A DNA stretch of 21,072 nt, taken from a virus. The position numbers and the translations under genes are program-made. The notes beneath the pieces are model-generated. The model was not told the origin of the DNA, ran no database searches, and was given only the letters and a program-made list of their open reading frames with translations. Shown here one piece after another: positions 2,388-10,636 of the stretch (the stretch's first letter is position 1; the number at the start of each line of letters is the position of its first letter). The stretch spans positions 1 to 21,072 of IMG/VR virus record IMGVR_UViG_3300010153_000154; one strand, given 5' to 3'.

Positions 2388-3719
2388 TTAAACCGCCTCA
2401 GCTACTGGGACTGCCAATGTCCCAGACTCAAAACGGGTGAACTCCTTGAAGAAAATAAACGGGAACCTTACCCCGCTAGTACCATCCCTGTTCTTGTCAA
2501 TAGATACCCAGACTGGAACCCCCACGGAATTGTCATCTGTTTTGTAGTCAGGGTCTTTGTACAAGAAGGTCACAAGGTCTGCGTCTTGCTCAATCGAGCC
2601 GCTATCACGAAGATCCGAACACCTCGGTTTTCTCTCGGCAATCTCTGCTGATCGGTTGATCTGGCTCAGCAAAAGGATGGGTATGTCCAAGTCTTTAGCC
2701 AACGCCTTGCAGCCACTAGAAATTTCTGTGACCTCATCGTTGCGAGTCCCCTTGCTCTTAGTGCTTCGTATGAGTTGGAGGTAGTCCACTACGAGTAGCT
2801 CAATATCATGCTGGGATTTCATTCGCCTTGCCGAGGCCGCGATCTGCTGCACCGTCAACCCGCTTCTGTCGTCAATGTGTAGGGGCGCGGCTGCTACTGT
2901 GCTCGCGGCCCTGCTAAGGTCGTCAATTCGCCCAGCCCAACTTTCCTTGGGGCATCTGGCCTGTGTGTGGATCATTCGCTGGATCAGGGCATCGGCTGAC
3001 ATTTCCAAACTGAACACGCCAACAGGCTTCCGTTGGTCAACGGCAACGTGACGCGCCACGTTCATGGCGAAGCTCGTCTTACCCACGCTTGGTCTCGCAG
3101 CTACCACTATAATGTTAGCTGGCTGGAGTCCTTTAATTGTACGGTCGATGTCATGCCACCCAGTCATAAGCCCATAGTTATTAGCTGGGTCATCGATACT
3201 GTACTGTAGCTTCTGGAGGTAGTCCGTCACCATGACAGACGTAGACCGTTCACCTTTCTGTGCTTGGTCTTGGGCGATAGACATAACCTTACGCTGCGTA
3301 ATGTCTAGCGCGTCCTCTCCGCTTTGGTTGTTCTGCGCTTCATACACGGCGTCTTTCCCTGCAAGTATTAAACTTCGCCTGACATGGTAATCTCTTAGTG
3401 CGTCTGCATAGGTTGGGTAGTTAATAGCCGAGGCTGCTTGATCGGTTAAGGACAACGCAAAGACTATGCCACCTATCTCATCCAGTTTGCCTTTCTTTTT
3501 AAGGTGATCTGTTAATGTATTCTCATCCACCGCCATGCTTGTGTTCACCAACTCGATGATCGAATTGAAGACAGTTTTGGTTCTAGTGGAGAAGAAGTAT
3601 TCCGCTACATTTTTATGTTCAGATATTACATTAGGTATCACCTCGTCAGGAGATAAAATCATGCAGCCCAGCAGGGCTTTCTCCATTTCTTCGTTATTTG
3701 GTAGGGTTTCTATGCTCAT
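2388..3719 (-). CDS. dnaB: DnaB-family replicative DNA helicase
   Basis: 443 aa, close to the usual DnaB length. Residues 6-150 match the N-terminal DnaB domain (NNEEMEKALLGCMI). The RecA-fold motor follows: Walker A ARPSVGKTS at 208-216 (K214), catalytic Glu in FSLEMS (E239), Walker B LLVVDYLQL (D312), and the DnaB signature around SQINRSAE and SDLRDSGSIEQDAD with arginine finger candidate R371. It unwinds DNA 5'-3' as a hexamer at the phage fork. No separate helicase loader or primase is recognisable in the window. The gene overlaps the upstream nuclease by 26 bp, and the start MSIETLP is the only reasonable one. Confidence 0.97.
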   Translation of the reverse strand: MSIETLPNNEEMEKALLGCMILSPDEVIPNVISEHKNVAEYFFSTRTKTVFNSIIELVNTSMAVDENTLTDHLKKKGKLDEIGGIVFALSLTDQAASAINYPTYADALRDYHVRRSLILAGKDAVYEAQNNQSGEDALDITQRKVMSIAQDQAQKGERSTSVMVTDYLQKLQYSIDDPANNYGLMTGWHDIDRTIKGLQPANIIVVAARPSVGKTSFAMNVARHVAVDQRKPVGVFSLEMSADALIQRMIHTQARCPKESWAGRIDDLSRAASTVAAAPLHIDDRSGLTVQQIAASARRMKSQHDIELLVVDYLQLIRSTKSKGTRNDEVTEISSGCKALAKDLDIPILLLSQINRSAEIAERKPRCSDLRDSGSIEQDADLVTFLYKDPDYKTDDNSVGVPVWVSIDKNRDGTSGVRFPFIFFKEFTRFESGTLAVPVAEAV

Positions 3720-4074: not shown

Positions 4075-4649
4075 AAATCCCAGATTAGTTTAGGCAGTGG
4101 ATGCAACAAGCTGTAACCCAGTACATGTGCTCCATTAAAAACACCACTGGTTGCAACCTTGCCATCCAGTTCGTCATCGGTGGCCCATCCCATTATGTGG
4201 CATAGAGCGCAGTTCTTCTTTAACTCAACAAGGACTAGGCAGTATGTCCAATCGGGCTTCCGCTCCCTCGGCCTAATGACCAACGAGTATTCCCGTGGGT
4301 CTTTGTGGCTCTTAATCCTTGTACCCTTTACGTCCATGCGAAGGCCCGGTAGATCGTATCCCTCATCCCCCTTGTCAGGAGTCTGCATGCAGTTCCAGCG
4401 TTGTATTCGGTACAGTTGATCTGTCCCTGTCATGTAGGTGGTGATTGCAAGCTGGGATATTTGGCCCGTCACTTGGTCGTGGTACAATCGGTTGATGCGA
4501 TCCTCTAATGTATGGTCAGGTATCTGGCTCCCAGTCTTACCCCTCTTCACAATCTTTGGCATGAAGTGCTCGACCAATTCGTTCGCCTTTCCTAGAGCTA
4601 AGTCCACTCTATGCTCGTCCAACCTTATAGTGGGATAAGGGTCTGTCAT
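4071..4649 (-). CDS. Putative PD-(D/E)XK-type nuclease of unknown family
   Basis: 192 aa. The central segment GYDLPGLRMDVKGTRIKS (97-114) places an acidic residue (D99), then D106-V-K108 on a predicted strand, the arrangement of a PD-(D/E)XK active site. A helix with GQISQLAITTYMTG (62-75) precedes it, as in other members of the fold. A later stretch (WTYCLVLVEL) looks like a core beta strand. The gene sits between two other PD-(D/E)XK-like genes with 4-bp overlaps on both sides, so the operon context supports a role in DNA processing. The specific family is not recognised, and the assignment rests on one motif plus context. Confidence 0.55.
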   Translation of the reverse strand: MTDPYPTIRLDEHRVDLALGKANELVEHFMPKIVKRGKTGSQIPDHTLEDRINRLYHDQVTGQISQLAITTYMTGTDQLYRIQRWNCMQTPDKGDEGYDLPGLRMDVKGTRIKSHKDPREYSLVIRPRERKPDWTYCLVLVELKKNCALCHIMGWATDDELDGKVATSGVFNGAHVLGYSLLHPLPKLIWDL

Positions 4650-5749
4650 TGTACTCGCATCAGGCTTGGCTTGGCTTGAGTCGTTGCAACAACTGCATCG
4701 TATTCAGCCTGACTCAGCATCTCCCCAATGGTTCCCCTGTCCCCCACCAGCTTCTTATATCTCCCGGTCGTAACGGAACAAGATTTAAGGAACTCTTCCG
4801 TACTCACCCCAGCCTTACGGGCCACAGCAAATGCCTTGGACGTACTGGACACTCGGCTAATGGCTCGACCACTCTTAACCTTCCAGCCTGTGATTGCAGC
4901 GTTATCCTTCTTTAAAAGCTCCCTCGCCTCCGCAGCCCTAGAGTCGTATGCGGCTACAGTTTTATCCCTAGCTTCCTTTAACTTGGACATAACGCCAGCC
5001 CTGTCCGACGCTGACATGTCCTCAAGTGGGCCAGCGTCATCGCCTAGCGCGTTATCAACGCGCCAGCTTGCAGCTTTACAAAACGACACAGCATCGCACC
5101 ACTTGCATGCCTTCTCGCTAGGGTAAAGCTGGGCGTGTTTGCTGCTGCCAAGGCTGACAATTCTCAGCAGTTTCCGACGAGCACTAGCCAGTTCCTCTAA
5201 GCTAAACACATGACACACCAACTTACCATAAGGTGACTCAGGTTGGGCGAAGCAGTAGCGCACAGGGTAGCCGGGGTTGTGGTGGTCGTGGAAAAGCACA
5301 GACTCAGCCATCGCTTGCCAGTTACCATTGGCGTCTTCTTGACCCATCCCTGTTTTATAGTTGATGACCACCGATTCGCCGTTAAGTTTATCGATACCGC
5401 CAACGTCCAGCTTACCAGAGAACAGCTTGTCGCCATCACTCCAGACGTACCACATTCGCTCCTCTCGTATGATGGGGTCGCAGTCATGTAGCAGTATGGA
5501 GTCGAACTCTTTCAGTTCATCAGCTACGACCTGTTCTTCGGGGGACAACACCACATCATCACCCTCCATGTGGGCGTGGATTCTGGTTCCACGTTCTGCC
5601 ATAGGGCTACTGGGTTGCGGCGGGGCTTGGCTTTCCATTTGGAAAGAACCCGGACACAGGGCGAGTCTTGATAGGCCAGAAGCTGACGGCTTCCCCCCTC
5701 TCTCGTCGAAGACTTCTTCAATAACTGCTTGTACTTCTGCTTCTGGCAT
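4646..5749 (-). CDS. DUF2800-like phage RecB/Cas4-type exonuclease, possibly altered active site
   Basis: 367 aa. Features of the DUF2800/RecB-like phage nuclease family: N-terminal SASGLSRLALCPGSF (22-36), a helix with ERGTRIHAHME (52-62), GKLDVGGID (112-120, D115), then VVINYKTGMG (127-136), and a cysteine cluster ending in ACKWCDAVSFCKA that together with C32 could hold a metal or Fe-S centre as in Cas4/AddB. The lysine of the (D/E)xK motif is K132, but the position usually Asp is Asn (N130), so activity may be lost or supported by other residues. The Sak4-like ATPase lies immediately upstream, consistent with an exonuclease-annealase recombination pair. The C-terminal third is charged and unassigned. 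Confidence 0.8.
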   Translation of the reverse strand: MPEAEVQAVIEEVFDERGGKPSASGLSRLALCPGSFQMESQAPPQPSSPMAERGTRIHAHMEGDDVVLSPEEQVVADELKEFDSILLHDCDPIIREERMWYVWSDGDKLFSGKLDVGGIDKLNGESVVINYKTGMGQEDANGNWQAMAESVLFHDHHNPGYPVRYCFAQPESPYGKLVCHVFSLEELASARRKLLRIVSLGSSKHAQLYPSEKACKWCDAVSFCKAASWRVDNALGDDAGPLEDMSASDRAGVMSKLKEARDKTVAAYDSRAAEARELLKKDNAAITGWKVKSGRAISRVSSTSKAFAVARKAGVSTEEFLKSCSVTTGRYKKLVGDRGTIGEMLSQAEYDAVVATTQAKPSLMRVQ

Positions 5750-8136: not shown

Positions 8137-8604
8137 TTACAGTCGCTCCACATGAACTGAGATAACTCCCGCCGCTGGCTGAGCTAGGCGCTTGAATGCG
8201 CCAAGACTTAAATCAATCCTCCTTGTCTTCAAGGAGTTAGGCTTCCCTTTTTTTCTAAGGTCTAGCCCCGGCCCCTTATCCACTACTGTTACCACAATAG
8301 AACGGGTACGGCCTAGACTTACGCGAAGCTTGGTTCCAGGGGGGAACTCCCAGCTTGCACACACAAGCTTCGATGAGTCATACCGCTTACCATATGCTGT
8401 TAGCGTGGTACAATCCTCGTAACCACCCTTGCCGTCAGGCTTACCGTACCAACTTGCAACGGTGTCGAAGCCGCCCCCCTTGTCTTGGGCGCATGCCGCT
8501 AAAAAGAAAAGGGTGGGACAAAAGAGTCCCACCCCAGTAACCATCTGCCTGATACACACAATAGCACCAGCAGAAAATCTATAGTATTTATTAAATGTCT
8601 TCAT
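8137..8604 (-). CDS. RlpA-like double-psi beta-barrel lipoprotein
   Basis: 155 aa from ATG 8604-8602, just after the previous stop (8608-8606); a longer frame from 8676 exists but would bury the signal peptide. A hydrophobic segment (GVGLFCPTLFFLAAC) ends in lipobox LAAC with lipidation at C38. The mature part has RlpA landmarks: ASWYG (50-54), TAYGKRYD, PPGTKLRVSL, VVTVVDKGPG, and RRIDLSLGAFKRLA near the C-terminus. RlpA proteins bind or cleave denuded peptidoglycan glycan at the septum. In a phage this could aid lysis, wall remodelling or exclusion. The SPOR domain of full-length RlpA is absent. A weaker internal start at M21 would also give a lipoprotein signal. Confidence 0.88.
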   Translation of the reverse strand: MKTFNKYYRFSAGAIVCIRQMVTGVGLFCPTLFFLAACAQDKGGGFDTVASWYGKPDGKGGYEDCTTLTAYGKRYDSSKLVCASWEFPPGTKLRVSLGRTRSIVVTVVDKGPGLDLRKKGKPNSLKTRRIDLSLGAFKRLAQPAAGVISVHVERL

Positions 8605-8605
8605 G

Positions 8606-8797
8606 TCAACTGTTTGGTTTAATGTAGTAGTCCCGGTTGGTTGCGATCTCGTACATTGCCTGAACCCCCTTGGCATTAAGGCAATCCACTTGTCGCTTGA
8701 TCATCGATCTCTGCACTCCCGTTATTTTTAGGTCAGCCGCCGTACTGTTCATCATGGCTTGCAGCCTTTTAGGTCTGTCCTTTTTATTGGTGTTCAT
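8606..8797 (-). CDS. Small basic protein of unknown function
   Basis: 63 aa, Lys/Arg-rich N-terminus (NTNKKDRPKRLQ), then a probable helical region (STAADLKITGVQRSMIKRQVDCLNAKG) and a short C-terminal helix. The ITGVQRSMIKRQ segment could be a small HTH, but this is weak. No family is recognised. It is the first gene downstream (minus-strand sense) of the 18-bp repeat array, 22 bp from the array's decayed end, and is almost fused to the RlpA-like gene (1 nt between stop and start). If the array is transcribed as a leader, this gene lies at its 3' end. Confidence 0.5.
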   Translation of the reverse strand: MNTNKKDRPKRLQAMMNSTAADLKITGVQRSMIKRQVDCLNAKGVQAMYEIATNRDYYIKPNS

Positions 8798-8819
8798 TTG
8801 TTGTTAGCTCTTTTTGATT

Positions 8820-9460
8820 GGTTCTCTCAAACGGTTTGGCTCGCTCTTTCTCGGATGGTTCTCTCTTCTTTCATGGCTCGTTCTAGCACCAAGGTTCTCT
8901 CTGAGATGGTGACTCGTTCGTTCATAGTGGTACACTCCTGTTGCATAACCTCGTTCAATTTTCATGGCTCCCTCATATCTAATGACTCGTTCGGTTTGGG
9001 TGGTTCTCTCTGACCGAATGACTCGTTCCACAGCGTGGTTCTCTCATATTTTATGACTCGCTCAAAACTAATGTGCCTGTCTTAATCATTGACTCGTTCT
9101 CGTCGCATGGTTCTCGCTATTGTGATGACTCGTTCTGTTGTATTGGTTCTCTCAGCGAGCTTGACTCGTTCGGCCTCAGTGGCTCTCTCTCTCCTATTGA
9201 CTCGTTCGCGGGGGATGGTTCTCTCTATTGTGGTGACTCGTTCTTCATAATTGGTTCTCTCCCAGATGTATGACTCGTTCTATTTTCCCGGTTCTCTCAT
9301 GGACAGTGACTCGTTCTCAATCTTTGGTTCTCTCAGGCAAGATGACTCGTTCATTACTAGTGGTTCTCTCTCCAGTAGTGACTCGTTCAACTCAATTGGT
9401 TCTCTCTCCCCTATTGACTCGTTCCATATATCTGGTTCTCTCTCAGTATATGACTCGCAT
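8820..9460 (-). repeat. 36-box alternating short repeat array (18/36-bp period), non-coding
   Basis: 641 bp containing 18 boxes of type A (plus strand TGACTCGTTC) alternating strictly with 18 of type B (TGGTTCTCTC). I located each 9-base box: A at 8838, 8875, 8911, 8948, 8984, 9020, 9055, 9091, 9127, 9163, 9199, 9235, 9272, 9308, 9344, 9380, 9416, 9452; B at 8820, 8857, 8893, 8929, 8966, 9002, 9037, 9073, 9109, 9145, 9181, 9217, 9253, 9290, 9326, 9362, 9398, 9434. Thirteen of each are exact. Gaps between 9-mers are 9 bases in 31 of 35 cases (10 at 8847, 8938, 9262; 8 at 9029), and 32 of 35 gaps end in T, so the true box is 10 bases plus about 8 variable. Gap sequences differ. Reading frames are broken by stops and length slips. 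Boxes near 9460 are clean; those near 8820 are degenerate. Function unknown. Confidence 0.95.
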
Positions 9461-9475
9461 AATTTTAGGTTTATT

Positions 9476-9781
9476 TTATTTTTTACCTTTGGCTATGGCT
9501 TGTACTTCTTCCGAGTATACGGTGTGTTTTGTTGCTTCCTCGTCATACAGGTGGTCGGTGGTTACATATTTCTCCTTGCTCCTTTCTACCGCTGATGTTA
9601 ATTGGAATTCCATAGCATCCAATGTTCGTATTTCGGATAGCGATATGTCCCGCATCTCTTTTATGCTCTCGTTTATTCCACCTAGTTTAAGGATTGCGTT
9701 TTCAACCTCTTTTATCAGGTTGATAGTATCCTCTAACCAATGGTCGCCGTTTTTTTCTTGTCTCTTGTTCTTCTTACTCAT
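9476..9781 (-). CDS. Predicted coiled-coil protein adjacent to the repeat array
   Basis: 101 aa. Highly charged with a basic N-terminus (SKKNKRQEKNG), then long helical stretches with hydrophobic heptad spacing (LEDTINLIKEVENAILKL and about 40-75). No transmembrane segment and no recognised family. The stop codon lies 15 bp from the first clean box of the repeat array, so a minus-strand transcript of this gene would run directly into the array. The tight placement makes it a candidate partner (box-binding or array-associated), by inference only. Confidence 0.55.
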   Translation of the reverse strand: MSKKNKRQEKNGDHWLEDTINLIKEVENAILKLGGINESIKEMRDISLSEIRTLDAMEFQLTSAVERSKEKYVTTDHLYDEEATKHTVYSEEVQAIAKGKK

Positions 9782-9826: not shown

Positions 9827-10636
9827 CTACGCTGCTTTCTCAGCTAAAGGCGCTGGCCTAAAATGTGCATGCCCCATGTGTGCAATGGGGTAAGGCAACG
9901 GTGGCGCTTGCTTGTAGTGGTGGCGGTAAGCCACATCATGCCAATGTGACAGGAACAGCTTCACCGCATACCTCTTAGCCCTTGCATGAATGTGACCAGC
10001 GGGTAACTTCCCAATGCTATACGACTTGTGCGCTTCAGTCTTCTTGCCAACCCGCTTGGCCCCGGCGTCAGCTTGAGCTTTATACTCAAGCCGTTCGTTC
10101 TTCTCGTTCTCGTAAGCCTTACGTTCCTCAAATATTTTTCCATAGATATCCGAGTCAAGGTTCTTGGTCTTCACAAAACACTCTCCCATTTTCCAGCAGA
10201 GTGTCTTGAGGTTAGCGTTCCAAGGCCGCTTCTCTCCTTTGTTCCATACGGATGTGGGGTCTTGGCCAGCGAACCGCCATATGTGTCCCACGGTTGGGGC
10301 TTGAGTAATGTCCACATAAGCAAGCAGCCCAGCGGACAAGACAGGCCCAATGCCAGTGATCCCCATAGACCACTGACCTATCGGATGGCCAAGTGCATAC
10401 TTGTTTAGGGCTTTCTTGATGTTGTCCTCCAAGGACAGGTTGATCTCACCAACCCACGACATCACTTCGGACGGTTCGGATTCCTCTTCAAGCCCACGCA
10501 CCTGTGCAGCACTGCGAATCCTCGCGTTCTGCATTTGGTAGTAGGTGTCCACCAAGAACCTAGCTTGGTGATCGGTCATTGTTGCGCTTGCTTTGAGCAA
10601 GTCTTTGTCTAGTTTTACTTTTGCTTTTGTGTTCAT
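9827..10636 (-). CDS. IS110-type helix-hairpin-helix (Transposase_20-like) domain protein, stand-alone
   Basis: 269 aa. Residues about 90-130 (MGITGIGPVLSAGLLAYVDI, then IWRFAGQDP) match the helix-hairpin-helix region of IS110/IS116 transposases. The following part has basic/aromatic segments (WNKGEKRPWNANLK) and a C-terminal HIHARAKRYAVKLFLSHW block with clustered His, including a His-rich tail. The N-terminal DEDD RuvC-like domain of true IS110 transposases is missing, replaced by about 85 helical residues, and no element ends are seen. It is therefore probably a domesticated DNA-binding or structure-specific protein rather than an active transposase. It lies one gene from the repeat array. 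Confidence 0.65.
   Translation of the reverse strand: MNTKAKVKLDKDLLKASATMTDHQARFLVDTYYQMQNARIRSAAQVRGLEEESEPSEVMSWVGEINLSLEDNIKKALNKYALGHPIGQWSMGITGIGPVLSAGLLAYVDITQAPTVGHIWRFAGQDPTSVWNKGEKRPWNANLKTLCWKMGECFVKTKNLDSDIYGKIFEERKAYENEKNERLEYKAQADAGAKRVGKKTEAHKSYSIGKLPAGHIHARAKRYAVKLFLSHWHDVAYRHHYKQAPPLPYPIAHMGHAHFRPAPLAEKAA

Follow-up and report, generated by a model that had tools for sequence, protein, structure and literature searches.

A phage TIGR-TasA dual-repeat array and the phage family matched by its sister arrays

TIGR-Tas systems, described in 2025 (Faure et al., Science 2025, PMC12045711), are defined by two alternating repeats of 8-12 nucleotides (nt) that are separated by spacers of 8-12 nt and together form a unit of ∼36 nt. 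Their natural targets, the origin of their spacers and the role of TasA were left open in that description, and no report of natural TIGR targets was found in the open-licence literature. Here, we have analysed a stretch of viral DNA of 21,072 nt (IMG/VR record IMGVR_UViG_3300010153_000154, positions 1 to 21,072; hereafter the window), in which a long array of two alternating repeats lies close to a gene annotated as 'transposase' by PHROG. By its repeats, its spacers and its neighbouring gene, this is a TIGR dual-repeat array with TasA, carried by a tailed phage, and a new member of a kind already described. The first-pass annotation of this DNA had stated that no described element has such a design, which is not the case since TIGR arrays were already published (PMC12045711). 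What is new here, as far as the literature could be read, is the block unit in which the arrays are inherited and the natural target phage family of the sister arrays.

The array and its TasA protein

Read on the plus strand, 18 boxes each of TGACTCGTTC (A) and TGGTTCTCTC (B) alternate between 8819 and 9460 at a pitch of 18 bp (with a few of 17 and 19 bp), and the spacers between them are of 8 nt, apart from three of 9 nt and one of 7 nt. Elsewhere in the window there is no exact copy of A and a single one of B. On the minus strand, positions 8807-9460 have the structure [ATGCGAGTCA]-N8-GAGAGAACCA-N8-(GAACGAGTCA-N8-GAGAGAACCA-N8)x17-GAGC, i.e. 18 composite units. The alternating array of 36 boxes reported earlier is real, and its coordinates were right to ∼15 bp, but it is less uniform than claimed: several boxes are degenerate, mainly in the half distal to the tas gene (8837-8974) and at the loop box 9072-9081. 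We also observed that the decay of the repeats is polar, in that 8801-8974, far from tasA, is mutated and 9090-9460, near tasA, is almost perfect, which may show which end of the array renews its units. That the repeat is non-coding, as the first-pass annotation held, is borne out by the window, where all six frames are interrupted, and by its relatives, as any open frame was found in just 2 of 45 arrays. No known RNA family of Rfam was matched by the array.

The composite pattern recurs in other viral contigs. Scanning IMG/VR with the exact 28-bp composite returned 49 stretches of other viral contigs, which excludes chance, and all of them bear an array (7-86 boxes; median 42 in the 45 distinct arrays). 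The repeats are of 10 nt and 1707 of the 1756 spacers in these 45 arrays are of 8 nt, within the ranges of the published definition. One sister array is bacterial and lies on a contig of a metagenome-assembled genome (MAG) of Candidatus Propionivibrio aalborgensis, a betaproteobacterium. A match in a Shewanella MAG was set aside because it consists of one composite pair and is at the chance level for an exact match of 20 bases in 257 Gb. When all open reading frames (ORFs) were compared with each other, one protein family, tas, was found beside the array in 46 out of 50 counted sequences with an array, so that the Nop-domain (Tas) neighbour of TIGR arrays is present here as well. In the sister loci, the tas stop codon and the first full box are typically 12 bp apart, and the first truncated edge repeat often overlaps this stop codon (TAA-CCA). 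In some relatives (L024/L010, L059, L040), the array is upstream of tasA or flanks it on both sides. A predicted rho-independent terminator after the array belongs to the description of TIGR systems. Most array loci have a gene directly after the array; an automatic test flagged a terminator at this place in 3 of 45 arrays, and in one locus (L033) a hairpin stands directly past the array.

The window protein resembles the known Tas proteins over their Nop domain. Among PDB profiles, it matches TasR (9mty, 4.5e-23) and TasH (21kl, 3.4e-18), and its AlphaFold2 model (pLDDT 85) is closest to TasH (Z 19.5) and TasR (Z 18.0), followed by IS621 (Z 13.4). The alignments begin at residue 64 of TasH (span 64-309) and residue 110 of TasR. 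The window protein thus covers the part of TasH and TasR that follows their nuclease domains, and is therefore of the TasA type, with the Nop domain only. No nuclease domain of Pfam, neither HNH nor RuvC, was matched in it, and the N-terminal HNH nuclease that marks the TasH subtype is absent. An IS110 transposase would have an N-terminal DEDD RuvC-like domain, a Tnp domain and a single bridge RNA; only the C-terminal part is matched here. The features of the locus are listed in Table 1.

Table 1. Features of the TIGR-TasA locus in the window
Feature	Position	Strand	Remarks
tasA, 269-aa Nop-domain (IS110 C-terminal-like) protein, no nuclease domain	9827..10636	-	upstream of the array, same direction; phrog_4285, E=1e-47
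101-aa ORF, function unknown	9476..9781	-	between tasA and the array
TIGR dual-repeat array, 18 edge-spacerA-loop-spacerB units of 36 nt each	8807..9460	- (putative transcribed strand)	strand from the truncated edges at both ends and the direction of tas in sister loci
Array-opening 5'-truncated edge repeat ATGCGAGTCA	9451..9460	-	
First full edge repeat GAACGAGTCA	9415..9424	-	further ones at 9379, 9343, 9307, 9271, 9234, 9198, 9162, 9126, 9090, 9054, 9019, 8983, 8947, 8910, 8874, 8837
First loop repeat GAGAGAACCA	9433..9442	-	further ones at 9397, 9361, 9325, 9289, 9252, 9216, 9180, 9144, 9108, 9072 (degenerate), 9036, 9001, 8965, 8928, 8892, 8856, 8819
Array-closing 3'-truncated edge repeat GAGC	8807..8810	-	an extra, truncated A-type box when read on the plus strand; same kind of closure in sister arrays (GAACG/GAGCG)
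63-aa ORF	8606..8797	-	start codon ∼10 bp past the array end; no family match
Terminator-like hairpin	8510..8535	-	downstream of the array and the 63-aa ORF; consensus scan, count no higher than in shuffles

The inherited unit and the targets of the sister arrays

Comparison of the 45 arrays shows that a shared spacer A is followed by a spacer B that is also shared in 562 of 848 cases (66%), and a shared spacer B by a shared spacer A in 262 of 890 (29%). Since co-inheritance of A then B is well above that of B then A, the block edge-A-loop-B, of 36 nt, is the unit that is inherited, and the basic unit of 18 bp proposed in the first-pass annotation has to be given up. As judged from spacer sharing, arrays gain, lose and shuffle this block, which corresponds to the predicted tigRNA. 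Two other proposals of that annotation, that the boxes and their spacing are under selection and that the spacers are not products of slippage copying, are upheld.

Truncated edge repeats at both ends, which belong to the published definition of TIGR arrays, are present in the window and in most sister arrays, and suggest that cleavage takes place within the edge repeat. The array and tasA would be transcribed together from the minus strand, which agrees with the earlier candidate of a transcribed purine-rich RNA from this strand, and cleavage inside each edge repeat would release ∼18 guide RNAs of 36 nt. From the truncated edges and by analogy with SpTIGR, the array of Salicola phage CGphi29, the predicted guide is 5'-AGUCA-spacerA(8)-GAGAGAACCA-spacerB(8)-GAACG-3', and the solved TasH and TasR complexes suggest that each TasA dimer would carry one guide.

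Units that lie 1-3 bases apart in different arrays are far commoner than in re-paired controls. Moreover, units with A and B swapped (≤3 mismatches) number 12, against about 1.4 expected and 1 in the wrong register, as though one site were targeted in both orientations. A seed site common to sister arrays, TACCACGA/GGAAGCCC, was scanned in IMG/VR with gaps of 0-2, and gave 42 matches at gap 0 against 18 and 20 at the other gaps; 16 contigs form one phage family. By homology to the protein encoded at the seed site, this target family was extended to 46 members (419 kb), in which 622 other units were tested, with the seed site excluded, in 16 combinations of geometry and gap. For spacer A followed by the reverse complement of spacer B at gap 0, there were 33 exact matches from 4 units, and 153 matches from 12 units when ≤1 mismatch was allowed. 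The other 15 combinations gave one exact match in one combination and otherwise none, and 0-8 units at ≤1 mismatch. Re-paired spacers matched a mean of 0.07 units exactly, with none of 1000 trials attaining 4, and a mean of 3.0 units at ≤1 mismatch, with none of 300 trials attaining 12. In 1.6 Mb of unrelated viral contigs, sites were at background level only.

Altogether, spacer pairs of 19 sister arrays, all from other sub-lineages than that of the window, match the target family within 1 nt. In the described TIGR systems, spacers A and B pair with opposite strands of adjacent DNA with a gap of 0-2, and the matches of the sister arrays show this arrangement at gap 0 only. These matches indicate that the natural target of a sister guide is a contiguous 16-bp site made of spacer A and the reverse complement of spacer B with zero gap. 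The codon phase of the variable columns across the junction of spacers A and B also ranks the tandem gap-0 geometry at the top (39/91), at weak significance.

The target sites are mostly found within ∼1 kb: 42 bp upstream of a gene for a 154-aa protein, at several places inside this gene, and in the next gene. Distinct variants of the spacers are exact matches to distinct variants of the target. The target family encodes a primase-polymerase, a helicase, a Cas4-like exonuclease and a Sak4-like protein, with a type I restriction system in one contig and a terminase in the two longest contigs, and has a distant relative in Acidithiobacillus phage AcaML1. Its sites occur exactly in two bacterial genomes, in one of them on a single contig of 2.05 Mb, and among 399 genomes from the order to which the array-bearing MAG belongs, the family is present in two; the related element of a bacterial chromosome encodes a serine recombinase. 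The target gene is missing from the array phages, as is tasA from the target family. An array phage was found in the same sample for 6 of 46 target contigs, compared with 2 of the 227 controls (p=4e-4), in a hand count from contig names that habitat may confound.

One further family of sites, CGAGCATC/GATCTCCT, occurs in ten arrays (L012, L013, L019, L028, L035, L036, L041, L042, L044 and L056) and in both spacers varies mostly at third codon positions (E-I-D-A), the pattern that guides tracking synonymous change in a protein gene would show. No target of this site family was found, and the search for a second target family via the site AGGAGATCGAYGCYCG gave nothing.

What the guides may be for

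We argue that, at the contiguous 16-bp site, spacers A and B would pair with opposite strands. As TasA has no nuclease domain, its most likely action is to bind and bend the site, not to cut it, and so to block transcription or replication; DNA binding and bending are known from the structure of TasR (PMC12045711). Since the sister sites are in temperate phages and prophages, mostly in or beside the conserved ∼154-aa gene of the replication/recombination block, the arrays most likely serve to compete with temperate phages, be they resident or co-infecting. The explanation as a whole, that of a phage TIGR-TasA array whose dual guides serve this competition, is in our judgement very probable. 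We would go further with moderate confidence, and propose that phage TIGR-TasA arrays act as inherited collections of dual guides directed at temperate phages and prophages. Many independent arrays would then converge on the same few sites of one family, with guides in both orientations and variants that fit those of the target, for a nuclease-free, RNA-guided silencing of these competitors.

Several observations weigh against this explanation. For the 18 guides of the window itself, no target that convinces was found: when the three sites that are best conserved, TGCARCAGGTTCATAG, TCTTGSCTTCARTCTT and TAYACWGACATATATC, were used in scans, they returned unrelated contigs with no second matches, and the first of these sites was found in none of 300 genomes of the array-MAG order. 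The target family was found via one site, and since units and target contigs share descent, the matches are not all independent; counted cautiously, perhaps 5-7 independent sites support the family. Tas nucleases, moreover, blocked neither phages nor conjugation in E. coli (PMC12045711).

It could be that guides of the same TIGR-TasA array control genes of the phage itself or of its host, which is suggested by the nuclease-free TasA, as binding without cleavage suits regulation. The window unit TCACAATA/TCGTCGCA has an exact match in gyrB of one genome from the array-MAG order (L603, G099:C1:1-20000, near 3058), the sole exact match of a window guide; however, this match is single, was absent from gyrB of five other genomes, and is taken as chance. 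Across 1.7 Mb of contigs from array phages, sites were not enriched, in a computation that preceded the register correction and used the first, partly wrong register of the units, and 1.28 Mb of a genome of the host order, scanned with the correct geometry, was at background apart from the prophage site. As the spacers of the sister arrays also match a phage family distinct from the array phages, we consider such gene control unlikely. That the array is degenerate and has lost its function is less likely still: several tas-distal boxes and one loop box have decayed and a 101-aa ORF separates tasA from the array, but the tas-proximal half is almost perfect, the tasA gene is intact, with 65-79% identity to that of the nearest sister loci, and one unit of the window is exactly common to two sister arrays (L045 and L054). 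The first-pass annotation had considered an iteron or partition array or a protein-binding platform. Fixed spacing, conserved 10-bp boxes and an intergenic position are what one would expect if a replication protein or a ParB-like protein bound the boxes, yet conservation extends to the spacers, which recur between arrays as A-B pairs and have matches in the DNA of other elements, and the adjoining gene is a Tas/Nop gene, neither Rep nor Par; we regard this as highly improbable.

A lineage of ∼50 sister arrays makes the inherited unit, the natural targeting geometry and a concrete target phage family, with sites in bacterial genomes, addressable from sequence. The purpose of TIGR arrays becomes a question of binding and prophage silencing with named sites.

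Relation to described systems

TasA-like genes were also noticed in two other phages. Microcystis phage Mvi-JY20 (PP438412; L060) has an unannotated TIGR-type array at 4600-4990, with edge ATGCGAGCC and loop ACGAAACCC, directly past a TasA-like gene; the array ends in a strong terminator, and as the phage is isolated and its host is known, it suits experiments. The 'transposase' of ∼70 mycobacteriophage records, at 2809-3519 in Mycobacterium phage CactusRose (KX683876; L061), is a Nop-domain homologue of the TasA kind (30% identity), and its gene precedes that of a Cas4-type exonuclease. Next to it, no dual-repeat array with a 36-bp unit could be seen, in a look that was not aimed at arrays of stem-loop type.

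Like CRISPR arrays, the array of the window is a guide array of repeats and variable spacers. It differs from them in its two alternating 10-nt repeats and split 8-nt spacers, and no cas genes were noticed near it, in agreement with the earlier view that it is not a normal CRISPR. The IS110/IS621 transposases with their bridge RNA share with TasA a related RNA-binding/Nop fold and a two-part guide, whereas TasA lacks their N-terminal DEDD nuclease domain and has a guide array in place of a single bridge RNA. Closer is FpTIGR, the TIGR-TasA system of Flavonifractor plautii (Faure et al. 2025), which also combines a solo Nop-domain protein with a dual-repeat array; its spacers are of 9 nt (18 nt combined) instead of 8 nt, its repeats differ, and the window family is phage-borne. 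The TIGR-TasH system of phage CGphi29 (SpTIGR; NC_020844, PDB 21kl/9w04) has the same edge/loop array with 10-nt repeats, 8-nt spacers and a 36-nt unit, and a homologous Nop domain. Its array is followed by a terminator. The window protein, in contrast to TasH, is without the HNH nuclease domain, and the sister arrays of the window are longer (up to 43 units). The repeats of SpTIGR, AAGCGAGCCA/AAGACAACCA, and those of the window, GAACGAGTCA/GAGAGAACCA, are alike at 7 of 10 positions each and differ by three bases.
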